A program made the position numbers and the translations under genes. Below the pieces are notes generated by a model. That model did no database searches. It was not told the DNA's origin and saw nothing but the letters and a program-made list of their open reading frames with translations. 64,000 bases of DNA from Candidatus Zixiibacteriota bacterium (GTDB lineage: Bacteria > Zixibacteria > MSB-5A5 > GN15 > FEB-12), in assembly GCA_024278935.1 (NCBI GenBank), contig JAJRSF010000064.1:1-64000 (forward strand), given 5' to 3'. Positions 26,262-61,394 of this stretch are shown piece by piece (positions within the stretch are counted from its first letter, which is position 1; each line of letters opens with the position of its first letter).

Positions 26262-26333
26262 CCGTTGACTTAACCTATAATAATCTACAATCTTTCATTA
26301 TATAAAATAGTGAAAAAAAGAAAGGCATTACAA

Positions 26334-27854
26334 ATGACACAAAAAAGTTTTAACTCAAAAAACAGCAAAGCTCTATTATACGTTCGGGTATCAAGTGAAG
26401 AACAAGAAAAAGATGGATTCTCACTCGATGCTCAAGAAAAACTTGGTAGAGAATATGCAAAGAAACACAATCTCACAATTGTCAAGTTTTGGAAAGTTTC
26501 TGAATCCGCATGGCGAAATAATAGAAAACAATTTCAAAACATGATAGACTATGCCCAAAGACATACAGATGTTGAACATATTATATTTGATGTACTTGAC
26601 CGAATGACTCGTAATGATTTTGATAAAATGAGAATTACAAACTTAATTAAAAATCATAGTAAAATTATTCATTTCTCAAGAACAAATAAAATATTGGACA
26701 AAGATAGTGACTCATCTGATGTCTTCATGTTTGATATAGAAGTTGCTGTTGCTAAGAAGATGTCAGAAGATATTTCTCGCAAAGCTTCTATGGGAATGCA
26801 GGAAAAAGCAAGTCAAGGTTTCTTCTCTGGAACAGCTCCAATAGGTTATTTGAACAATACTACCACAAAGCTAATAGTCATTGATACAGAAAGGGCTCCA
26901 TTCATAAAAAGAGCGTTTGAACTGAAAGCATCAGGAAACTATTCTAACCAAAGCCTTGTAGATTTGCTTTATCGAGAAGGGTTAAGAACAAGAAGAGGAA
27001 ATCCTGTTAAGAAGTCTTCAATATCTCGCCTGCTAAACAATCATATTTATTATGGTTCTTTTCATTGGAAAGGACAGTTGCTCGAGGGTAAACACGAGCC
27101 AATAATCTCAAAGCAGTTATTCGATAGTGTACAAAAGATACTGTCGAGTAAAGGAAATAGACCCATGAAAACAAAACATAACTTCCCTTTTCAAGGAGTG
27201 GCAAGATGTGGAGAATGTGGTTGTACAATTCTTGGAGAATTCAGAAAAGGAAAATACACTTATTATCACTGTGGATTTTCAAAAGGGAGACACGAATCTA
27301 ATAAATATATTACATCAAAAAAAATGCCATTACTTTTTGAAGATATAGTAGCTAAAGTTGCTATTTCTGATGAACTATCAAGTTGGGTCATTGATTCAAT
27401 TGCTTACCATCAAACAGGTGAACAAAATTACAGAAAGGAGCGTAATGCAAGTCTTAATAAAGAACAGGGCAAACTTCAAAAACGACGGAGTAATTTGTAT
27501 GACAAATTACTTGATAACGACATTGATAATGACATGTTTAAAGATAAGGAACAAGAAATTAAAGAGAGATTAGCAACTATCAATTATGAACTTGAACAGA
27601 TAAATACTTCAGGTAACAATGCGATTCGTCACGCTAAGAAATTACTCGAACTTTGTAAAGGATTGTACGATGTATATTTGAGTGTAGATGATAAGAAGAA
27701 AGCACAACTACTAAGGATAATAGGCTCGAACTATTCATTAGTAGGTACAACTGTAAGTGTCACATACAATAAACCCTTTAATTTTCTTGTGAATTTACCT
27801 GATAGTATTATTAAGCTCCGGTGGCAGGACTTGAACCTGCGACAGGCTGATTAA
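26334..27854 (+). CDS. Large serine recombinase (resolvase/integrase family)
   Basis: 506 residues from ATG 26334, preceded by AAAGG at good spacing (an in-frame GTG 24 bases earlier is weaker). The N-terminal resolvase domain begins ALLYVRVSSEEQ, with the nucleophile Ser in RVSS, and continues FDVLDRMTRNDFDKM. A recombinase domain (GTAPIGYLNN, KSSISRLLNNHIYYGSFHWK) and a zinc ribbon (ARCGECGCTI, then YYHC) follow, then a coiled coil. Such enzymes insert and excise elements. The last ten codons overlap the 3' end of tRNA-Asn on the other strand, so the enzyme's gene abuts its likely attachment site. Confidence 0.92.
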   Translation: MTQKSFNSKNSKALLYVRVSSEEQEKDGFSLDAQEKLGREYAKKHNLTIVKFWKVSESAWRNNRKQFQNMIDYAQRHTDVEHIIFDVLDRMTRNDFDKMRITNLIKNHSKIIHFSRTNKILDKDSDSSDVFMFDIEVAVAKKMSEDISRKASMGMQEKASQGFFSGTAPIGYLNNTTTKLIVIDTERAPFIKRAFELKASGNYSNQSLVDLLYREGLRTRRGNPVKKSSISRLLNNHIYYGSFHWKGQLLEGKHEPIISKQLFDSVQKILSSKGNRPMKTKHNFPFQGVARCGECGCTILGEFRKGKYTYYHCGFSKGRHESNKYITSKKMPLLFEDIVAKVAISDELSSWVIDSIAYHQTGEQNYRKERNASLNKEQGKLQKRRSNLYDKLLDNDIDNDMFKDKEQEIKERLATINYELEQINTSGNNAIRHAKKLLELCKGLYDVYLSVDDKKKAQLLRIIGSNYSLVGTTVSVTYNKPFNFLVNLPDSIIKLRWQDLNLRQAD

Positions 27855-27888
27855 CAGTCAGCTGCTCTACCAACTGAGCTACACCGGA
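27816..27888 (-). tRNA. tRNA-Asn (anticodon GTT)
   Basis: 73 bases on the minus strand fold as a complete cloverleaf: acceptor TCCGGTG with CACCGGA, D-arm GCTC/GAGC, anticodon stem GCTGA/TCAGC with loop CTGTTAA (anticodon GTT), T-arm GCAGG/CCTGC around TTCAAGT, and discriminator G. CCA is not encoded. It overlaps the end of the serine recombinase frame and lies 230 bases from an asparaginyl-tRNA synthetase gene. Confidence 0.96.
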
Positions 27889-28118: not shown

Positions 28119-29504
28119 ATGATTAATGCAAATAGAACAAGAGTAAAAGACTTATTAACAACACATACTTTAGATCAAATTGTGGAAATTTGGGGCTGGG
28201 TAAAGACTGGTAGAGTTGGCAAAAATGTAGCATTTATACAACTATCGGATGGTTCATGTTTTAATACTATTCAACTTGTAATAGACAATACTGTCAATGA
28301 TGTGGATGTTAAACAAGCCGTTTTAACAGGGACTTGTATTCAAGTTTCAGGAAAATTAATTGAATCACAAGGTAAAGGTCAGTCTCGGTAAGTCATTGTT
28401 TCCTCAATCAAAATTGTTGGTTCTAGTGATGAAAAATTTCCTCTGCAGAAGAAAAAACACTCCTTTGAGTTTCTGAGATCAATTCCACATTTGAGGGGTA
28501 AAACTAATACATTTTATGCGATATTTTCAATTAGAAATAAACTTTCTTTTATAGTTCATAAGTATTTTCAATCTAGAAACTTTGTATATATTCATTCGCC
28601 AATAATAACAGCAAGTGATTGTGAAGGAGCTGGAAATATGCTCCAAGTAACTAATTTTGATCTTGAAAAAATTATAAAAGATAAGGGTTTTAACTACAAA
28701 GATGATTTCTTTGCACAACAAGCATTTCTCAGTGTAAGCGGTCAACTTGAAGGTGAAGCATATGCTCAATCACATGGAGAAATATATACATTTGCTCCAA
28801 CATTTAGAGCGGATCCATCTGACACACCAAGACATTTATCAGAATTTTGGATGATAGAACCAGAAATGGCGTTTTATGACTTTGAAGACTTGAAAATTCT
28901 AATTGAAGATTTCATAAAACACTTAATAAGTGAAACTCTTATTCAATGTAAAGATGAGTTGAAATTTTTGGATGAATTTGTTACACCAAATCTTTTAGCA
29001 AAACTTAATGACACTATTAATGGTGATTTCGAAGAAATGACATTTGAAAAAGCAGTATCTATAATAAATAATTCTAAGAAAAAATTTGAAAATAGAGCAA
29101 CGATGGACACTGATCTATTTCTTGAACATGAGAGATATTTAGTAGATGAAGTCTTTAAGAAACCGATATTCATAACTAATTATCCAAAATCATTTAAATC
29201 ATTTTATATGAAAGCAAATGATGATGATAAAACTGTTCGTTGTTTAGATTTGCTCGTACCTGGAATAGGTGAAATTATTACAGGGAGCCAGAGAGAAGAT
29301 AATTATAATTCTTTACTTCAACGAATTAGTGATAAAAACATGGATGTGAGTGCTTACGAATGGTATCTTGATACAAGAAAGTGGGGAACATGTCCACATT
29401 CAGGATTTGGTTTAGGATTTGAAAGAATGATATTATATCTAACAGGAATGAAGAATATAAAGGATGTTATTCCTTTTCCACGAGCAATGAACAGTGTTTA
29501 TTAA
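28119..29504 (+). pseudogene. asnS: Asparaginyl-tRNA synthetase interrupted by an in-frame TAA
   Basis: The full frame is about 461 codons, normal AsnRS length. The N-terminal OB-fold (EIWGWVKTGRVGKNVAFIQL) ends in GQSR, then TAA at 28389-28391; family members have a Glu here. The same frame continues VIVSSIKIVG, LRSIPHLRGKTNTFYA and the class II core: motif 2 FRADPSDTPRHLSEFWM, motif 3 GFGLGFERMILYL. No good start codon lies soon after the TAA (the first is a TTG at 28491 inside the catalytic domain). AAGGAG precedes ATG 28119 well. The enzyme would charge tRNA with Asn; the tRNA-Asn gene is next door. It may be dead, read through or mis-sequenced. Confidence 0.88.
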
Positions 29505-29611
29505 GGATTGTTCTTTCTTTAGTTTTTCATGGTATGTAAACTTAATATGTTTGTACGCTAAATGCTTAGATGGCAAATTTTCATTTAAATTCTTAAATGA
29601 AAGGAAATAAA

Positions 29612-30748
29612 ATGTTGGGTCCATATGAAGCAAATAAAGACAAAGGCATAAGATATGTTGGGAATAATGTATTTTCTGAAATAGCGGATATAACTAAAAT
29701 AGAATTTTCTGATAAAGAATTTCGAAACAGAGTAGAAATGTTTTCAAAAGATAAATTTTGGAAACATTCAGTATTAATTCAAAATTCAATAATTCAAACT
29801 ACAAATCAATTCTTTAATAATCTTGGTGCGATTTATATTAATCTACCTCTTACAACAAAAATGATATCATCTCCAGGTGCTGTTTATGGTAAAGAGGCAA
29901 TTAACTATACAACTGATACTAACCCAATTAAGTTAAAATGGTTTGATTTGGAAGGTGACATATTTCTAGCCGAATCATCACAAATTTATCTTGAATTATC
30001 ATTGTTGGTTAATGATATTACTCAGGTTTATTCAATATATAATTCTTTTAGAAAAGAAAATGCTGACGCAACTCACTTGTCAGAGTTTCATCATATAGAA
30101 TATGAAGGAAGAATTAGTCAAGAAGCAAATAAGGTAATTATTACAAATTTAATAAATAAGTATTGCTCAGATCTTTTAGAAAATAATGAAGAGAATTTAA
30201 GATATTTTCTTGATAATGAGGATTTAATTGAACTTGATAAATTAAGTAAATTAAAAACAATTAATACAATAACTTATAAAGAAGCATTGGAAGCTTTATA
30301 CTTAGATACCAAAGATGATAATTATAAAAAATTTACAATGGCAAATTGTTTTGGCTCTTGGGAAGAAATAAGATTAACACAGATTTTTGATTCAATGTTA
30401 TATATTTCAGAATTTCCATTACTAGAGGTACCTTTCTATCATGCTCAAATTGATAATAAAGAACCAGCTGTTGCAAATAATGCTGATATTATATGGCCTG
30501 GTTATAGAGAAACAATAGGGTGTGGACACAGAGTAAGATCTGTCCAAGAGTTGAAAGAAAAATCAAGAATATTTTGTTTGCCAGAAGAAGATTATGCTCC
30601 TTATATGCAATCAAGGGAGAACAATTCATATAAACCAACTTCAGGGTTTGGATTAGGGTTTGAACGTCTCATGCAAGGTATGTTAAAACTACCATTTATT
30701 TGGAATGCAGTATTGTTTCCGAGAGTACATACAAGCCTTTATCCATAA
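29612..30748 (+). CDS. Class II aminoacyl-tRNA-synthetase-like protein (AsnRS/AspRS paralogue without anticodon domain)
   Basis: 378 residues from ATG 29612, preceded by AAAGGA. It has the class II catalytic core only: motif 2 reads SFRKENADATHLSEFHHIEY and motif 3 GFGLGFERLMQGML, both in the AsnRS/AspRS style, but no N-terminal OB-fold for the tRNA anticodon. Known proteins of this build include archaeal AsnRS-related asparagine synthetase and EpmA-like paralogues that aminoacylate proteins or small molecules. It probably adenylates Asp, Asn or a relative and passes it to something other than a whole tRNA. It follows asnS by about 110 bases and precedes a kinase by six. Confidence 0.8.
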   Translation: MLGPYEANKDKGIRYVGNNVFSEIADITKIEFSDKEFRNRVEMFSKDKFWKHSVLIQNSIIQTTNQFFNNLGAIYINLPLTTKMISSPGAVYGKEAINYTTDTNPIKLKWFDLEGDIFLAESSQIYLELSLLVNDITQVYSIYNSFRKENADATHLSEFHHIEYEGRISQEANKVIITNLINKYCSDLLENNEENLRYFLDNEDLIELDKLSKLKTINTITYKEALEALYLDTKDDNYKKFTMANCFGSWEEIRLTQIFDSMLYISEFPLLEVPFYHAQIDNKEPAVANNADIIWPGYRETIGCGHRVRSVQELKEKSRIFCLPEEDYAPYMQSRENNSYKPTSGFGLGFERLMQGMLKLPFIWNAVLFPRVHTSLYP

Positions 30749-30754
30749 AAAAAT

Positions 30755-31657
30755 ATGTCATTTATAAATGTAATAAAAAGAATTTTTGAACAAAATATTA
30801 GGACTCTAACTTCACAAATACAATTAAGTGACAATAATAACCTTGTTTATTTAGCTACCTCAAATGATACTAAATATATTATCAAAGTATATCAAAACAA
30901 AGGAATGTACTCAGACAAAGAAGCTTATCTTTTAAATAAAATTTCAAATAAAAATCTTCGTAAGATGTATTATTATGAAGAAAAACCTGCAGGAATAGAT
31001 TATCCTATATCTATTTTAGAGTATATTGAAGGAGAGACTTTACTGGATCATGTTAAAAATGATCTCTCTTTAGAAAATGCTGAAAAATATACAACCCAAA
31101 TTTTCAATTTTTTACAAGATTGTTTTGAACATGCAGAAGATGGCTTTGGTTGTATTGTTAATGACCAAGAATATTCTCATGAATCATGGCAAAGTTATTT
31201 ATTTGATGCTCTTACTAATCCAATGAAAGATTTATTACAATATAATATCTCTGATTTATTGGAAGAATCTTTCGCAATTTATTTTAACTGCCAGCAACAG
31301 ATTTCTTGTGAGAATCCAGTTATCGTACCTATTGATTTAAACTTATCAAATTTTATAATATCAAAAGATAATGAAGTAAAGGTAATAGATCCTGGTGCTA
31401 TTATTGCTGGAGATTCCCATAATGCGTATGGCGAATTTGCTGCACATACTTATAAGACCTTATTATGGGATTGTTTCGCAAAAAATCTTTCAAATGATTC
31501 TCTTAAACGTGTACATATATATGCTTTATTTGATGATCTCAATATTCTCTCCTTTATTGCAAGGCATGGTGGAGATGTTTATAAAGCATGCCCTTGGGGT
31601 AACCCTCATACTTTTATTGAATTAATAAAACTTCATATAAAAGAAATTACTAAATGA
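30755..31657 (+). CDS. Aminoglycoside-phosphotransferase-fold kinase
   Basis: 300 residues with the APH/choline-kinase layout: an N-lobe with a Lys-bearing strand (KYIIKVYQNKG) and a Glu helix, the hinge PISILEYIEGETL, a catalytic loop VPIDLNLSNFII with Asp and Asn, and metal loop VIDPGAII. The usual His before the catalytic Asp (HGD) is Pro-Ile here, which is unusual. The substrate is unknown and could be a small molecule or an amino-acid derivative. It begins six bases after the AsnRS-like gene and overlaps the formyltransferase start by four bases (ATGA), so the three genes are translationally linked. Confidence 0.75.
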   Translation: MSFINVIKRIFEQNIRTLTSQIQLSDNNNLVYLATSNDTKYIIKVYQNKGMYSDKEAYLLNKISNKNLRKMYYYEEKPAGIDYPISILEYIEGETLLDHVKNDLSLENAEKYTTQIFNFLQDCFEHAEDGFGCIVNDQEYSHESWQSYLFDALTNPMKDLLQYNISDLLEESFAIYFNCQQQISCENPVIVPIDLNLSNFIISKDNEVKVIDPGAIIAGDSHNAYGEFAAHTYKTLLWDCFAKNLSNDSLKRVHIYALFDDLNILSFIARHGGDVYKACPWGNPHTFIELIKLHIKEITK

Positions 31658-32523
31658 ATGTAATATTTATAGGTAGTTATTATCAAGGTGTTTTAGGTTT
31701 AAAGAAGCTTCTCTCAAAAGATTTCAATGAAATTTTTCATCTACAAGGTATTATTACATCATATAGCAAAAGAAAATTAAAGAATGAACAGCCTGTCATA
31801 AAAATAGCTGAAAAATTTAATATTCCTGTTTTTGATCAAAATATAAATAGTTCTGAATTTAAGAATTGGTATAAATATTTTTCTCCCGATATTATTATTA
31901 TGAGTCAATATAATCAAATCATTTCTCCTGAGATTTTAAAATTATTTCCAAATTATACATTTAATATTCATCCATCAGACCTCCCTCACAATATTGGAGG
32001 TGCTCCTTATCATTATGCGATGCTCAGAGGAGAAGACTTAGTAATTACAGTTCATAAAGTATCTAACAAAATTGATAGAGGTGATTGGATTTATAAATCC
32101 TCACCCATAGATATTACCAATACAAAGATTGAAACTTTAGTGAATAATATTGGTCCAGAACAATGTGCTAAAGCAATGGAAAAAGTGTTGCACATGATTA
32201 AAGATAATTTGATAGTATTTCATAAAATTGAAGGAAATCCTACATTTGCTTGGGGTAACAAATTAAAAAAAGATTTAAAGATTGATTGGAAAGAGTCTGT
32301 TGCTTCAATAGCTAGGAAAATTAATGTTTGTGGTGCAGAAGGAGTTGATGTTCGACTTAATGATAGTAAATATACCAAATTAAAACTTTTTAATGCAGAG
32401 ACAAGAAGTGAATCAAATGCAAAAGAATACTGGGGAAAACCTATTATATTTAAAAAAAACTATGTTCTAATAGGGTGTAATGGTGGAATAATTAGTTGCC
32501 ATGATTTTATCAAAAATTGTTGA
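31654..32523 (+). CDS. Formyltransferase-family protein (Fmt/ArnA-like)
   Basis: 289 residues. The N-terminal folate-dependent formyltransferase domain shows NIHPSDLPHNIGGAPYHYAM and KIDRGDWIYKSSPIDI, supplying the Asn, His and Asp catalytic triad (Asn and His in NIHPS, Asp in IDRGDW). The C-terminal part (WGNKLKKDLKIDW, then GVDVRL) resembles the Fmt C-terminal OB domain. It would move a formyl group from 10-formyl-THF to an amine. True Met-tRNA formyltransferase is an essential housekeeping enzyme rarely found in such a setting, so the substrate here is probably the product of this cluster. It overlaps the kinase gene by four bases and ends 21 bases before att-like repeat B. Confidence 0.8.
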   Translation: MNVIFIGSYYQGVLGLKKLLSKDFNEIFHLQGIITSYSKRKLKNEQPVIKIAEKFNIPVFDQNINSSEFKNWYKYFSPDIIIMSQYNQIISPEILKLFPNYTFNIHPSDLPHNIGGAPYHYAMLRGEDLVITVHKVSNKIDRGDWIYKSSPIDITNTKIETLVNNIGPEQCAKAMEKVLHMIKDNLIVFHKIEGNPTFAWGNKLKKDLKIDWKESVASIARKINVCGAEGVDVRLNDSKYTKLKLFNAETRSESNAKEYWGKPIIFKKNYVLIGCNGGIISCHDFIKNC

Positions 32524-37200: not shown

Positions 37201-38028
37201 TTATGCAGCTTCAATATATCGATTACAATAATAACAATTCTCATTATTAGAAGTTTGAGAATTAGAAATTGTCCAACAACCAAAGTTCTCACGACGTTGA
37301 AATATAATAGAAGGGATTGGTTTTGACATTTGAGTTAACAACAACATAATTTCAAAACATCCTATTGATGCCATAATACCATTCAATGAAACGACAGAAG
37401 GTCCACTATCTTTAAGGAGTTTAGAATTTACACCATAAACAAGTTTATCAAATTCTAATTCGGACTCGGAAGCATTATATCTACGAACCTCATCTTGATC
37501 AATTTGACCAGAGCAAAGTAAACAGCCAGTACCATAAGAAAGATAAGTATGACCACCCACAATGCCTTCTGAAGGATGAATTTCTGAGGCAATATCCATA
37601 TATGGTATATGTTTTCTTGAAGCATAATCAGTTAATAATAATCTAGCTGCATCATTATTAACAGAACCAATAATTACATTAGGGACTGTATCTTTTGCAT
37701 ATTGATCAAGTAGTTCAATTTTATCTTTGATACAAATAACATTCGCAGTTGGATTAATATTCTTAATCATTTGTTCAGCTACTTCAACTTTGGGTAACCC
37801 GATATGTTTTTTAGTACTTCCAATTAATCTATTAAGATTTGAAAATTCTACATGATCTGAATCTATTAAAGAAAAATTTTCGATACCCAAATAAACAAGT
37901 TGTTGACTAACATGAGATCCAATACCTCCTAAGCCACAAATTAAAGCGTGAGTGTTTTTTATTATTTTTTGTCCGTCTTCACCGAACATTCTTTCTTGAC
38001 GGTCAAATTGGCTATTTGAACTTTTCAT
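37201..38028 (-). CDS. ThiF/E1-like activating enzyme of a ubiquitin-like operon
   Basis: 275 residues. Adenylation Rossmann motif CGLGGIGSHVSQQL, the Asp and Arg loop LIDSDHVEFSNLNRL, and GSVNNDAARL are typical of ThiF/UBA enzymes. CLLCSG and, near the end, CYYCNR would hold a zinc. By family it adenylates the C-terminus of a ubiquitin-like protein. It is the last gene of a four-gene operon (modifier, E2-like, JAMM, E1) and its start overlaps the JAMM gene end by 17 bases. Related operons act in anti-phage defence (Bil, Bub). Confidence 0.9.
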   Translation of the reverse strand: MKSSNSQFDRQERMFGEDGQKIIKNTHALICGLGGIGSHVSQQLVYLGIENFSLIDSDHVEFSNLNRLIGSTKKHIGLPKVEVAEQMIKNINPTANVICIKDKIELLDQYAKDTVPNVIIGSVNNDAARLLLTDYASRKHIPYMDIASEIHPSEGIVGGHTYLSYGTGCLLCSGQIDQDEVRRYNASESELEFDKLVYGVNSKLLKDSGPSVVSLNGIMASIGCFEIMLLLTQMSKPIPSIIFQRRENFGCWTISNSQTSNNENCYYCNRYIEAA

Positions 38029-38545
38029 TAAACTTACTTCCCTTCACTTGATCTATAGTGTGATTAGTTGGAAATATCCTTTCTTGATCGACTAAAAGAC
38101 AATCCAAACCGATGAAATTTTCATTTTTTTCATGCCACACTAGGGCATCAAAACTAATTTTATTAAAAACTAAGGCAATATATGGAAGATTATTTAGTCT
38201 CCACCTTATGTGAGGTACGAATTCATTAAATCCCTTCATATCAGAGTAAGAAAATTGGACTGGATCATTATTAATATGAGAGTGAGTTTCTATTAAACAA
38301 TATCCAGAATCCCAAGCACTCTTAATAATAGATTGGCGAGTTTCATCACTAAGTGAAATGTGATAATCTGACTGGAAGTCAAATCCAGAAGGAGGTATTT
38401 TTAACAAGTCGTTACATACAAATAGAATATTATTTTTATTCTTAGAATATGAAGCTTGCAAAAAAGCAACTTGTTCAACATCACTCTCTAATAGATGTGA
38501 CAGTAAATTATTATATTGAAGAGATGTCATTTGTAAATTTATCAT
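38012..38545 (-). CDS. JAB/JAMM isopeptidase of the ubiquitin-like operon
   Basis: 177 residues. The JAMM zinc motif is complete: ETHSHINNDPVQFSYSD gives H88, H90, S99 and D102, and Glu24 in DVEQVAFL is the likely activating Glu. By family it cleaves or trims ubiquitin-like proteins, here either maturing the modifier, which carries residues after a C-terminal Gly-type end, or removing it from targets. It lies between the E2-like and E1 genes with a 3-base gap and a 17-base overlap, so translation is coupled. Confidence 0.88.
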   Translation of the reverse strand: MINLQMTSLQYNNLLSHLLESDVEQVAFLQASYSKNKNNILFVCNDLLKIPPSGFDFQSDYHISLSDETRQSIIKSAWDSGYCLIETHSHINNDPVQFSYSDMKGFNEFVPHIRWRLNNLPYIALVFNKISFDALVWHEKNENFIGLDCLLVDQERIFPTNHTIDQVKGSKFNEKFK

Positions 38546-38548
38546 AAG

Positions 38549-38944
38549 CTATCTCCCCATCTTAAAGCGATAAATGAAACTATGAATGAAATTAAGTAAA
38601 TTACTACCTTCTCTATAATCAGAATGGGGATACCAATTTTCAGCCGCCCAAGAAAATTTGAGCCATTGATTACCATAAGGAGTATCCGATGCAATTTGAG
38701 CATTATCAGCACTTGAACCATCTCTCAATTTTATTGTGTAAGGAGACACATAAAACCCATAAGGTGATTGACCTGGATAATTTTCAGGTATTTGAAAACA
38801 AATTGTAACAGATTGTTCACTCCAAATATTTTCAGGTATAATCCAATTAGAAATAAAAACCCATTTCAATGTACCATGAATTGTAGCTTCAGGATACTGG
38901 CTTTTTATTACTTCAAATTCCTGTTTAATACGTTGCGAGTCCAT
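38549..38944 (-). CDS. E2-like protein (prokaryotic E2 family E type) without a catalytic Cys in the usual place
   Basis: 131 residues. The UBC-like signature is IPENIWSEQSVTICFQIPEN, then YPGQSPYGFYVSP and FSWAAENWYPHSDYREGSNL, the pattern of prokaryotic E2 family E proteins found with multiubiquitin. The only Cys (C49) lies in the second strand rather than after the YPGxxP motif, so a normal E2 thioester role is doubtful. It stands between the modifier and JAMM genes, with 3-base gaps on both sides. Confidence 0.8.
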   Translation of the reverse strand: MDSQRIKQEFEVIKSQYPEATIHGTLKWVFISNWIIPENIWSEQSVTICFQIPENYPGQSPYGFYVSPYTIKLRDGSSADNAQIASDTPYGNQWLKFSWAAENWYPHSDYREGSNLLNFIHSFIYRFKMGR

Positions 38945-53445: not shown

Positions 53446-53892
53446 ATGTCACAAAAATTACATAATTGGCAATATTGGGTAATACAAAATGTTTTCCTTT
53501 TAACCAAAAGGTTTGGAAAGCAGAATGTTATTTTTAATCAAAATAACTGGCAGTCTATATTTATTAGACGGTTTGAATTACCTGTAAGTTGGAGTCAGAA
53601 ATATACATCTCTTTTGATTCTACTTCCTAAATCAGCACAAATTCTGTATAGCCCACCTGATAGATTCTATATCGAGAAGAAATTGACAGCTAAAAACGGT
53701 AAATTTCCGACACATTATTTTCAAGAAAAAGGGTTTAATGATTTATCTAAACACAACTTGGCTCGGTTTTCATTTCATGTTAATAATGGGTGGAATCCAA
53801 ATATAAATTCAATCAAAGGCACAAATCTGCTACACGTCTTAGACGGATTACATAAAGGTATGCACAGAGCTGCTCAGGAGGTACTCAAATGA
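53446..53892 (+). CDS. E2-like protein (prokaryotic E2 family E type), no Cys
   Basis: 148 residues from ATG 53446, preceded by AAGGAGA (the frame to 53404 runs into the hairpin). The UBC-like core is RRFELPVSWSQKYTSLLILL, then LYSPPDRFYIEKKL and ARFSFHVNNGWNPNI, the family E pattern. There is no Cys anywhere in the protein, so a thioester E2 is excluded. The next gene, a JAMM protease, starts four bases before its stop. It probably binds the modifier or an acceptor rather than carrying it. Confidence 0.75.
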   Translation: MSQKLHNWQYWVIQNVFLLTKRFGKQNVIFNQNNWQSIFIRRFELPVSWSQKYTSLLILLPKSAQILYSPPDRFYIEKKLTAKNGKFPTHYFQEKGFNDLSKHNLARFSFHVNNGWNPNINSIKGTNLLHVLDGLHKGMHRAAQEVLK

Positions 53893-54365
53893 AGAATCAA
53901 ATAATTTTTAAACAACAGGATTGGGATGTTCTGAAAAAATCGTTATATGAAACACGAGAGCTTGAATCAGCCTTGTATGGTTTTTACAAAGAATCAACAA
54001 CTGATTCATCACATAAGATACTTGTGAATGATATTCTTATACCAACCAGATCTGATTATCACAAGAGAGAACGTTCTTACGTGGCATTCAAATCAGACTT
54101 TACTATTCAAGCATTAAAGTATTGTATGGACAACAATTGTCATCTACTTGATATACATACTCATCCCTGGTCAAGTGATGTCAATTTTAGCTCAATTGAT
54201 GACAACGAGGCAAAACGTACAAAGATTCCATATTTAAAACAGTACGTAAAAAATGTTAAAATCTCATTTATCGTTTTGGGTAAAAACTCACAGATAGCAA
54301 AAGCAAGAATGTGGGCAACGAAGTCAGACAAATTACAATCAATTCATAAAATAGTTATTGTATAG
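53889..54365 (+). CDS. JAB/JAMM isopeptidase of the second ubiquitin-like system
   Basis: 158 residues. The motif DIHTHPWSSDVNFSSIDD provides H90, H92, S101 and D104, and Glu24 or Glu26 in RELESALYGF is the likely catalytic Glu. It is the second JAMM protease in the window, not a close copy of the one at 38012. It overlaps the E2-like gene by four bases and precedes the E1 by nine. Confidence 0.88.
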   Translation: MKNQIIFKQQDWDVLKKSLYETRELESALYGFYKESTTDSSHKILVNDILIPTRSDYHKRERSYVAFKSDFTIQALKYCMDNNCHLLDIHTHPWSSDVNFSSIDDNEAKRTKIPYLKQYVKNVKISFIVLGKNSQIAKARMWATKSDKLQSIHKIVIV

Positions 54366-54374
54366 GAGAAAATC

Positions 54375-55442
54375 ATGCAAATAATTCAATGTGAAAAACC
54401 AATCAAAAATAATAACCAAGATGAAGTATGTGACCGTCATATCAGGTTATTTGGAGAATCTTTACAGAGTAACTTATCAACGATGACAATCGGTATTGTT
54501 GGTGCCGGAGGTTTGGGGGCTATCCTTATTGAACAAATCATGCGTTTGTATCCGCATAAGATAATCATTATCGACAAAGACTATGTAGAAATGTCAAATT
54601 TAAACAGATTGACCAACGCAACTTTAAGCGATGCTCACAATCACACACCAAAAGTAGAAGTTGCAAAACAAGCAGTTCTTTCAAACAACCCAAATCAAAC
54701 GATTGCGGTTATCAATGGAGATTTTTTAGAAGAAGAAAATCAAGCAATATTTAAAGAATGTGATATCATCTTCGGAGCATCTGATTCAATTGCTGTAAGA
54801 TATGCCATTAATCAGTTGGTGGTAGCTCATGGAATTGTTTATATCGACTGTGGTACCGGAGGAATTTTGGAAAACAATCGTCTGAAACATGTTGGCGGTC
54901 AGATCACACTTATAAACCCTTGTCAGAACTTCTGTCTTTACTGTTCAAACTTATTCAATAAGCAAGATGCGATGAGTGAATTAGTAGATGAAGATGAGTA
55001 CAATAGATTAGATAATCAGGGATATATGAAGGGAGCTGATATAATTGCTCCTCAAGTGTATGCACTTAATATGTTGATTGCTTCAACCGCTGTTTGGCTT
55101 TTTATGCGGATAGTCTCAGGAGAGGAGATGGATTTTCATGGCATTGCTATAGACGCAAAAACATTTTCTATGTACTACTGGAAAGACAAGGATCATAATA
55201 ATTCGGATTGTCCTATTTGTGGTGAGAGTGGAACCACTATGATGGGCGATGAAGCAGAATTGTTGTGTAAGAATAAGTGCGGGACAGATTCAATTCCTGA
55301 ACCACTCGAGAAATCAAATATGGTTATAAATAGTTTGGATAAAATAGAATCAAATGAATGTATTGAAACTAATTCACATTGTCCGAAAATTATATTGGGT
55401 GATGATAATAATTTTCTTTTATATAGAATATTTAACTTTTAG
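54375..55442 (+). CDS. ThiF/E1-like enzyme of the second ubiquitin-like system
   Basis: 355 residues. Nucleotide loop GIVGAGGLGAILIEQIM, the Asp and Arg region IIIIDKDYVEMSNLNRL, and FGASDSIAVRYAINQLVV are typical. NFCLYCSNLF and DCPICGESG supply zinc Cys. It carries an 80-residue C-terminal extension of low complexity. The enzyme would adenylate a modifier whose gene is not obvious in the operon. AGGAGA precedes the ATG. Confidence 0.9.
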   Translation: MQIIQCEKPIKNNNQDEVCDRHIRLFGESLQSNLSTMTIGIVGAGGLGAILIEQIMRLYPHKIIIIDKDYVEMSNLNRLTNATLSDAHNHTPKVEVAKQAVLSNNPNQTIAVINGDFLEEENQAIFKECDIIFGASDSIAVRYAINQLVVAHGIVYIDCGTGGILENNRLKHVGGQITLINPCQNFCLYCSNLFNKQDAMSELVDEDEYNRLDNQGYMKGADIIAPQVYALNMLIASTAVWLFMRIVSGEEMDFHGIAIDAKTFSMYYWKDKDHNNSDCPICGESGTTMMGDEAELLCKNKCGTDSIPEPLEKSNMVINSLDKIESNECIETNSHCPKIILGDDNNFLLYRIFNF

Positions 55443-58260: not shown

Positions 58261-61200
58261 CTATGATGACCATTCATTGGCAAATAATTCTGCTTGTTTA
58301 AGAATATTCTCGGTTGCTAATAATTGCAAATCTGGTGGATAACCATATTTTCGTAATGTTCTCTTGATTATTATTCGAAGTTTTGCCTGAACAGTTTCTT
58401 TGATTGTCCAGTCAATTGATGTGTTGGCTCGCACTCTCTCAACTAATATTCTCGCAAGCTCGACTAGAGTATCATCACCAAGAACTTCTTTTGCACTATT
58501 ATTATTCGCCAAAGCATCATAGAATGCGATTTCATCCTCAGATAAATTTAGCTCATGACCACGTTCATCTTCAGACTTAATGTGTTTTGCTAATTCAATC
58601 AATTCCTCTAATACCTGAACAGCAGATAAAAGGTTGTTTTGATATTTCTTTATTGATTTTGCTAAAAGTTCTGACAGCTTTATACCCTGAATTAGATTTT
58701 TTGATAATCTTATTTTGATTTCATCAGACAAAATTTTCTTAAGTAATTCAAAAGCTAAATTCTTTCGTTTCATCCCTTTAATTTCAGCTAGGAATTCATC
58801 AGATAATATAGAAATGTCAGGTTTTTTGATACCTGCCGCATCAAAAATATCAATTACTCCTTCTGATACTACTGCTTTATCAACAATTTGTCGTATCGCA
58901 GTTTCTATTTCTTCATCAGACTTCCCGCCATCAGTTGGAGTAAACTTCGTAAGACGAGCTTTAATTGTTTGAAAGAATCCAACATCATCCTTAATTTCCA
59001 TAGCCTCTTTATTGGGAACCGACAAGGCAAAGGCTTTTGAAAGTAGCATGACCTGTTTTACAAATCTGTTCTTCCCATCATCCAAACTAAGAATATGTTC
59101 CTGAGCTTCTAAAATAATTGTCATTTTGTCTTTAGTACTAGCAGAGGAATATCGCTTGAAGTTAAAATTATTAAACATTTGAACAACAATTTCATATTTC
59201 TCAATCATTACGGCGATAGCCTCACTGATATCAAGAGTTGGCTCACCTTTCCCACCACTTTCAGTATAGATGGCTATTGCTTTCTTTAGTTCTGAGCCAA
59301 TTCCAGTATAGTCAACAATAAGCCCACCCGGTTTATCTTTGAATACTCTGTTAACTCTTGCGATAGCCTGCATGAGATTATGTCCTCGCATCGGTTTATC
59401 AATATACATAGTGTGAAGACAGGGAGCATCAAAACCTGTAAGCCACATATCTCTAACAATTACAAACTTCAATTTGTCATTAGGGTCTTTGAATCGTTCA
59501 CCAATATTTTTTCTATCCTGCTTTGTGGTATTATGTTTTTGCCAACTTTGTGGGTCACTAGAACTTGAAGTCATTATTACTTTGATCTCACCTTTTTTCT
59601 TATCATCATCATGCCAATTAGGACGTAATGCGATAATCTCTTCATATAATTCAACAGCTATACGACGACTCATAGCAACAATCATTGCTTTACCGTCAAA
59701 CACTTCTTGTCGCTTTTCAAAATGATCAATAATGTCTTTAGCTACTGACTTAAGCCTATCCCGATGTCCAATTATTGCTTCAAGTTGAGTCCACTTGGCT
59801 TTTGCTTTTTCTTTCGCTGTAGATTCTTCACCTTCGGTAATAGCCTCAACTTCGGCATCAAGTTTATCTTTATCTTCCTGCTTTAGATGAACTTTAGCTA
59901 AGCGAGATTCATAGTAAATTCGAACCGTTGCCCCATCTTTAACTGCTTGAGAAATATCATAAATATCAATTTCGTTACCAAAAACCGCTCGTGTTGACCT
60001 GTCTTCTTTTTCGATAGGCGTTCCAGTAAACCCGATAAAGGTTGCTTTTGGAAGTGCATCACGTAAATATTTAGCAAAGCCATAACTGGTATAAGCTTCA
60101 CCATTGCGCACAACCGTCTTAGCACCAAATCCATACTGAGTACGATGAGCTTCATCTGCTATTACAATAATATTTTTTCTCTCAGATAATAAATCACAAA
60201 CTTCTCCACGTTCTTCAGGTGAGAATTTCTGAATAGTTGTAAATACTATACCTCCACCTGCTACTTTGAGAAGCTTCTTTAGATGTTCTCTATTTTCTGC
60301 CTGAACTGGTTCTTGTCTTAATAATTGTTTTGAGCCTGCAAACGTATCAAAAAGTTGCTCATCAAGATCATTTCTGTCAGTTACAACTACAATCGTTGGA
60401 TTATCAAGTTCTAGTACTGCTTGACCTGAGAAGAAAACCATAGATAAAGATTTCCCGCTACCTTGAGTATGCCAGACAACACCACCTTTTCTATTTCCTT
60501 TATCACTTGAAGCTTGCTTGGTGGATTCAACTGCCTTCTTCACAGCATAGTATTGATGATACGCCGCTATCTTCTTGGCAGTTTCAATTGTTGTAAATTC
60601 AGTCTTTGTATCTTCTTTTTTGGTTTTCTCAAAACAGTAAATTGTTTTATTAAATCAAGAAGTACATCCGGTCTTAACATACCTTGAATAACCGTCTGCA
60701 TCTGTGGAATTGTAACTTTATCTTCTTTAGCACCATCTCTCGTTTTCCAAACCATGAAACGAGTCCAACCTGCAGTCAGTGATCCGACTTTAGCATCAAG
60801 TCCATCAGATGCTAACAAGATTCCATTATAGTAGAAAAGATTTGTTATAGCGTTCTTATAATTCTGAAGCTGAGTATACGCTTTCTTTACTGTTGCGTTT
60901 TCATCAGTAGGATTTTTTAGTTCAATTACAACAAGTGGAAGTCCATTAACAAATAGTACTAGATCAGGACGTTTATTCGTGCTGTTTTGGATAACCGTAA
61001 ATTGATTACATACAACCAAATCATTTTCAGTAGGTTCCTTGAAATCAATCAACCAAACTTTATCTCCTTTAATGCCGTCATCACCCATGTATTCTACATC
61101 GATTCCATCAGTCAACATTCTATGGAATGCTTCATTGTTTTCCACAAGATTTTGACTTGGAAGATTTGAAACTTCTCGTAAGGCTTGTTCTTTTGCTTCT

Positions 61201-61394
61201 TCAGGAATGGAAGGATTGAGTGTATCAATGGCAGATTTCAAACGATCTTTTAAGAGAACATTGGATAAGTCTCCTCGTTCAATCTCCCATTCTTCGGGAG
61301 TAAGATAGATATATCCTTGCTCCTCAAGTAACTCAATAGCTACTTGTTCTACTTCATCTTCTGTTATTTTATTTTTTGTCATATTATAACTCAA
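58261..61394 (-). pseudogene. hsdR: Type I restriction endonuclease subunit R, frameshifted
   Basis: The first 275 codons (60567-61394) contain the PD-(D/E)xK nuclease (RPDLVLFVNGLPLVVIELK), and 58261-60543 the translocase: Walker [19 protein letters not shown]-type [32 protein letters not shown] and the motif VI arginines ([11 protein letters not shown]). The reading frame slips between them: TVLRKPKKK in frame one should read [10 protein letters not shown] in the next, which one extra A in the run at 60631-60634 would restore. A deletion in a homopolymer, or a sequencing error, has split the gene. It ends an operon with hsdS and a Thoeris pair. Confidence 0.9.

Follow-up and report, generated by a model that had tools for sequence, protein, structure and literature searches.

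A candidate asparagine-type cassette for an aminoacyl-nucleotide inhibitor, centred on a truncated AsnRS-like enzyme in a bacterial genomic island

A compact cassette in a 64,000-nucleotide stretch of a Candidatus Zixiibacteriota contig (the window, meaning the whole of the DNA analysed) is probably an asparagine-type member of a dispersed set of clusters for the synthesis of aminoacyl-nucleotide compounds (N-acyl phosphoramidates) that block aminoacyl-tRNA synthetases (aaRSs), a reading to which we give a probability of about 0.6. By analogy, such clusters appear akin to those of agrocin 84 and microcin C, with synthetase-like enzymes replacing the ribosomal peptide and MccB. The cassette comprises these features, given by position in the window:

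27815-27888, minus strand: extra tRNA-Asn(GUU), divergent from asnS2 and 230 bases from it
28119-29504, plus strand: asnS2, a second AsnRS of the full-length type (562 bits), with one TAA
28389-28391, plus strand: the in-frame TAA of asnS2, where the housekeeping AsnRS has Glu
29609-30748, plus strand: CORE, a class IIb AsnRS-like catalytic core of 379 aa with no anticodon domain, in the AgnA superfamily
30755-31657, plus strand: KIN, a small-molecule kinase of the APH/protein-kinase fold, with weak Pkinase/APH Pfam matches
31654-32523, plus strand: FMT, a folate-type, Fmt-like formyltransferase, below the Fmt cut-off

The reading frames of the four genes beside the tRNA-Asn are as the original prediction described them, and the TAA is indeed the sole lesion in asnS2. 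CORE, KIN and FMT are all intact, point in the same direction and nearly overlap, with six bases, an operon-like spacing, between CORE and KIN and a four-base overlap between KIN and FMT. The predicted core-only AsnRS paralogue is likewise present, although it is 379 rather than 378 residues long; its relatives start at the same MLGPY. The four-gene observation is not a chance one, because 23 relatives of CORE, almost all of full length, occur in genomes that are only distantly related.

CORE matches the Pfam family tRNA-synt_2 (3e-35) and falls below every curated family cut-off that was tried: 143 bits against 414 for AsnRS, at best 101.5 against 389 for asparagine synthetase A (PRK06462), and 24.6 against 286.9 for EpmA. 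Its closest characterised relative is AgnA (29% identity, 4e-21), the truncated AsnRS of the agrocin 84 cluster, which also encodes the resistant LeuRS AgnB2 (PMC4392301, PMC5059758). The earlier statement that no described system has such a gene set was thus too strong, AgnA having been described (PMC4392301). CORE and AgnA group together at an SH-aLRT of 99, with CORE as a separate clade; trees in which either clade joined AsnRS on its own were not rejected by an AU test (p 0.15 for CORE and 0.12 for AgnA). The link is supported independently, since MccD-type and MccF-type neighbours are common to both.

A structure prediction, proposed at the outset as a check on the amino-acid pocket, gave CORE an AsnRS-type fold (pLDDT 80, weak at 81-122; TM 0.72 to Thermus AsnRS). 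The Arg and Gln that correspond to the amino-acid-binding residues of AsnRS are retained in every CORE relative aligned, as are the motif-2 Arg, the motif-3 Arg and the putative metal-site glutamates, and these conserved catalytic positions are constant whatever aaRS is linked. We take the roles of these residues to be those of other class IIb enzymes. Because they are kept in all aligned relatives, it is plausible that CORE binds ATP and activates an acid. At the flipping loop, where the alignment is uncertain, the Glu-Gly of AsnRS is Ser-Pro in CORE (S88-P89) and nearly always so in AgnA-like proteins.

CORE relatives share 39-61% identity with it in the best segment, and their hosts are DPANN archaea, haloarchaea (Natrinema gari, N. 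altunense and Halomicroarcula, including cultured Natrinema), one Patescibacteria bin, one cyanobacterial bin (Microcoleus) and one unclassified bacterium. Counting the genomes that seeded the search, CORE occurs in 1 of 132 genomes of the window's phylum (the window genome only), in 11 of 371 genomes of one DPANN phylum, and in 1/380, 2/295 and 1/194 genomes of three further phyla. This sporadic spread is the pattern of a gene that is putatively accessory and horizontally moving. No relatives were found in viral contigs, and the matches in phage records look like host AsnRS in unannotated records. Contamination of the bin is possible for some short archaeal, Microcoleus and Patescibacteria contigs. 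For the window it was ruled out, as the contig is at least 64 kb long and carries bacterial genes and a bacterial-type AsnRS.

This distribution also bears on the idea that CORE is a housekeeping-type asparagine synthetase, of the asparagine synthetase A/archaeal AsnRS-related kind, with incidental neighbours. The fold class is the same, and NCBI names related plasmid proteins 'asparagine synthetase A', yet CORE scores well below every asparagine synthetase cut-off, is sporadic in all five phyla sampled and is linked in a conserved manner to MccD/MccF-type genes and aaRSs, all of which makes the idea very improbable. The archaeal proteins (PDB 3p8t, 1nnh) resemble CORE in being class IIb enzymes without an anticodon-binding domain; they differ in genomic setting, and CORE is less similar to them than to true AsnRS.

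For the neighbourhoods of CORE in other genomes, counts refer to 23 dereplicated loci, the window excluded, and to genes within 6 kb of CORE; several of the missing partners coincide with contig ends. A SAM-dependent transferase, of the MccD type or related to it, lies near CORE in 18/23 loci; an S66 (MccF-like), HIT or S51 hydrolase in 19 of the 23; and another aaRS or truncated aaRS-like protein in 18. The original prediction hung on some conserved neighbourhood in other genomes, and for CORE and the aaRS the linkage is kept in many of them.

The main group of transferases (14 loci) belongs to the family of the agrocin 84 protein adjacent to agnA (3e-32 to 1e-77). A phmmer search with the MccD of E. 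coli ATCC 25922 (mcc operon) matches this group at 2e-13 to 2e-27; in the other direction, a profile built from the cluster transferases matches MccD at 1e-49. The enzymes in L003, L005, L008 and L069 are a divergent relative (30-40 bits). Phosphate methylation had been considered as the role of the SAM enzyme and was dropped for an MccD-like role after the comparison with the mcc operon. In the aminopropylation of the microcin C phosphate, the 3-amino-3-carboxypropyl group of SAM is reportedly transferred by MccD (PMC10491745). Resistance to microcin C has been reported for hydrolases of the HIT (MccH) and S51 (MccG) kinds as well (PMC7157772, PMC9239234). The S66 proteins of CORE loci match MccF (to 2e-57), and an MccB homologue was found in none of these loci.

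Several loci have features of their own. In L014 (6309-9119), tRNA-Lys, LysRS and CORE lie in tandem, matching the tRNA-Asn, AsnRS and CORE of the window. A LysRS-like protein adjoins a radical SAM enzyme in L001 (1276-4230) and L070 (924-2989), possibly pointing to a modified lysine. A PLP decarboxylase directly follows CORE in L016 (6664-9657) and L010 (1986-3081); with the MccD-type enzyme it could be a counterpart of the MccE decarboxylase, and a search for a sequence match between it and MccE found none.

The aaRS genes themselves show a further regularity. Among CORE/AgnA-type loci, some have a full aaRS, some an aaRS-like protein that is truncated or divergent, and some both; where both are present they are of the same type of amino acid in seven of nine loci: Lys in L014 and L070, Asp in L008, Pro in L003 and L069, and Ala in L035 (Peribacillus) and L074 (Exiguobacterium). 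The two mismatches, L021 and the Xenorhabdus locus L033, combine a Leu-type enzyme with a ProRS-like protein of one subgroup. A permutation test gave p values of 0.0003 and, when each type was entered only once, 0.008; these are indicative only, the set having been chosen after looking. In the three archaeal loci compared (L003, L008 and L070) the paired proteins are only 27-31% identical and so are not recent duplicates. Some small archaeal genomes yielded no further copy besides the full aaRS linked to the cluster, which there is not necessarily an 'extra' one.

A similar division of labour is known for ascamycin, where AcmF, which is AlaRS-like and truncated, transfers Ala from Ala-tRNA to a nucleoside sulfamate, and AcmD is the resistant AlaRS that makes the Ala-tRNA used by AcmF (PMC12945691). 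Ascamycin resembles L008, L014, L070, L003, L069, L035 and L074 in joining a truncated aaRS-like protein with a full aaRS for the same amino acid. It differs from the CORE clusters in its sulfamate chemistry and its AlaRS, and an AgnA-like enzyme is not mentioned for it.

These comparisons suggest a route for the cassette in the window. CORE would bind ATP and an Asn- or Asp-like acid, make the adenylate and then a nucleotide phosphoramidate, the step that MccB performs in microcin C. Its fold and intact ATP-site residues are observed; MccB-like chemistry is what we infer from them. Elsewhere, a truncated X-RS-like enzyme would attach amino acid X. The window has no such enzyme, so the Asx product of CORE would itself be the warhead. 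The economical reading is that the Asx-nucleotide serves as warhead in Asn-type clusters and that others swap it for X or add X. Such a warhead would mimic asparaginyl-adenylate, with AsnRS2, possibly together with the extra tRNA-Asn, as the resistant copy. This role of AsnRS2 as an immunity protein is suggested by the matched aaRS pairs of other loci and by the precedents of AgnB2 and AcmD.

Counted in favour of this asparagine-type inhibitor cassette is a locus in a Micrarchaeota genome (L009), the nearest analogue of the window, which has CORE, a HIT hydrolase, an AsnRS and an amidohydrolase and thus repeats the pairing of CORE with AsnRS. It also counts in favour that the island holds asnS2 and the tRNA-Asn as additional copies. 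An intact asnS lies elsewhere in the same genome, at C19, and the window asnS2 is therefore an extra copy; it scores 562 bits against an asnS cut-off of 342.6, though its frame is broken by one TAA. The second tRNA-Asn of the genome, at C52, is syntenic with same-genus genomes, whereas the window copy has the tRNA itself but not its flanks in common with them, and is therefore the extra one. The two differ by a compensatory base pair in the T stem and have no flanking sequence in common. AsnRS2 is at most 51% identical to 30 AsnRSs of its phylum; 123 of the 160 positions invariant among these are kept and 37 are changed, including positions in an active-site loop and motif 2. Such divergence might fit a resistant copy, and equally any diverged or decaying one. 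A G-to-T change common to AsnRS2 and the L009 AsnRS was considered as convergent resistance at the loop and then discounted as a weak argument, since S/T can occur at that position in AspRS-type enzymes of archaea.

Other features of the window count against the proposal. Most CORE relatives have MccD-type and hydrolase genes close by and the window has neither, no exporter gene adjoins the cassette, KIN and FMT accompany CORE in no other locus, and asnS2 contains its TAA. The AU result for CORE and AgnA, and the small archaeal genomes with a single copy of the linked aaRS, are further points against it. The same absences and the same stop speak for a decayed remnant, that is, an acquired cluster that has lost its SAM enzyme and hydrolase, with asnS2 as a pseudogene and KIN and FMT as unrelated neighbours. 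We consider this unlikely, as the frames of CORE, KIN and FMT are unbroken, run in one direction and almost overlap, CORE retains the catalytic residues of its family, and the TAA is a lone substitution, of a kind that misassembly of a metagenome bin can produce.

KIN gives weak matches to Pkinase (2e-4) and APH (0.008); it has PIDLNLSN as its catalytic loop and, after this, IDPG where the metal site is expected, so that the replacement of HGD by PID reported from the sequence is borne out. A single-sequence structure prediction for KIN was uninformative (pLDDT 31), and comparison showed no relation to the phosphotransferases of L074 and L016. FMT matches Formyl_trans_N (3e-17), scores 104.4 bits against a cut-off of 201.5 for methionyl-tRNA formyltransferase, and has N-I-H and a later Asp. 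The co-conservation of kinase and formyltransferase with CORE did not survive the neighbourhood search that had been suggested for it: neither had a relative in the CORE or AgnA-like loci, and no co-occurrence with CORE was found outside the window. In plasmids, phages and viral contigs KIN had no relatives, and in plasmids and phages FMT had only distant Fmt-like matches, with no common neighbourhood. Phosphorylation of a nucleoside or of the product by KIN, and formylation of the alpha-amino group by FMT as activation or mask, are reasonable though hypothetical roles, and only weakly suggested; the latter may be compared with the acetylation of processed microcin C by MccE2 (PMC9239234). Of the original interpretation, the aaRS-derived CORE, the inhibitor-like clusters and the aaRS as probable immunity stand, while the co-conservation of KIN and FMT does not.

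With about 30% GC, the cassette region is poorer in GC than the first 14 kb of the window (about 39%), and it lies on an island that also has a tyrosine recombinase and many defence-type genes, read by eye. Within 26310-27888, a large serine recombinase overlaps the 3′ end of the tRNA-Asn by 40 bases at its own 3′ end, and the extra tRNA-Asn may be part of an attachment site or move along with the element. A search of 15-64 kb for direct repeats of the tRNA, as att sites would leave, found none, and promoter and terminator scans were no better than shuffles. Downstream, at 33285-63920, defence-type content is dense by eye: a TM0106-type nuclease, HerA-type ATPases, a DUF262/DUF1524-like pair, TIR-like and macro-like proteins, ThiF/JAB-type groups at 37201-38944 and 53889-55442, and type I restriction genes with HsdR in two ORFs (58261-60543, 60567-61394). 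The ThiF proteins of the window (37201, 54375) lie away from the cassette, in JAB/E2-type contexts as judged by eye.

Such surroundings, together with the extra tRNA-Asn and AsnRS, invite the reading that the cassette acts in abortive infection: on infection, CORE and its partners would make an AsnRS-blocking nucleotide and translation would stop, with AsnRS2 and the tRNA-Asn restoring it. PADLOC, however, gave no match for AsnRS, CORE or FMT and only partial kinase matches for KIN, the relatives in DPANN archaea, in Natrinema and on plasmids are accompanied by genes of the MccF/MccD type, as is typical of antibiotic clusters, and no relatives were found in viral contigs. We regard a defence role as improbable.

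By homology of CORE and its neighbours, agrocin 84 and microcin C, the precedents originally named, are the closest known systems to the inhibitor cassette that we favour. The agrocin 84 cluster (AgnA, AgnB2, Arad_15003, AgnC5; pAgK84) resembles the window in a core-only AsnRS-derived enzyme, of which CORE forms a separate clade, beside an extra aaRS, which in the window contains a TAA; its SAM enzyme belongs to the family seen with CORE relatives, and like them it has an S66 protein related to MccF. The window differs in having an AsnRS rather than a LeuRS, in lacking the SAM enzyme and the S66 protein, and in the addition of KIN and FMT. Microcin C (MccB, MccD, MccE, MccF; MccH, MccG) shares MccD- and MccF-type proteins and HIT/S51 hydrolases with CORE relatives; unlike microcin C, CORE loci were not found to contain MccB/ThiF or a precursor peptide, and the window itself has none of the microcin C genes.

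A broader proposal, which we advance tentatively, is that a non-ribosomal branch of the microcin C/agrocin type may span DPANN archaea, haloarchaea and scattered bacteria. In this branch CORE/AgnA would be the MccB counterpart that makes the nucleotide phosphoramidate from asparagine, swappable truncated aaRS-like enzymes would load the amino acid, and the paired aaRS would predict the target; the window would be an asparagine-type version, tailored by phosphate and formyl groups in a way that would have no precedent. If this holds, haloarchaea in culture and archaea with very small genomes possess antibiotic-type clusters directed against tRNA-charging enzymes, which to our knowledge are known from few bacterial cases, and the target of each unknown compound could be predicted from the aaRS genes paired with it. 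The reaction of AgnA becomes testable through its numerous homologues. The proposal also implies an enzymatic route to nitrogen-phosphorus bonds in addition to that of MccB. No description of CORE-linked archaeal clusters was found in the open-licence PMC literature; an earlier report elsewhere is possible.

Related plasmid loci may be of interest in their own right. On a Xenorhabdus bovienii megaplasmid, L033 (8872-18930) is an uncharacterised agrocin-like cluster with an AgnA-like protein, an MccD-type enzyme, an LD-carboxypeptidase, a nucleoside phosphorylase, LeuRS, a ProRS-like protein and an MFS transporter. Several plasmids of Pantoea agglomerans carry a fusion of a GNAT acetyltransferase to an AgnA-like core beside an MFS transporter (L036, 7344-8939), which recalls the immunity GNAT of MccE. 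Phosmidosine combines Pro, a phosphoramidate and 8-oxoadenosine. L073 (8992-17134), on a plasmid of Streptomyces sp. NBC_01707, encodes AgnA-like, MccD-type, ProRS-like and S66 proteins, a P450 and a molybdenum hydroxylase; this content would fit a candidate phosmidosine cluster, in which the molybdenum hydroxylase perhaps serves to make 8-oxoadenine.
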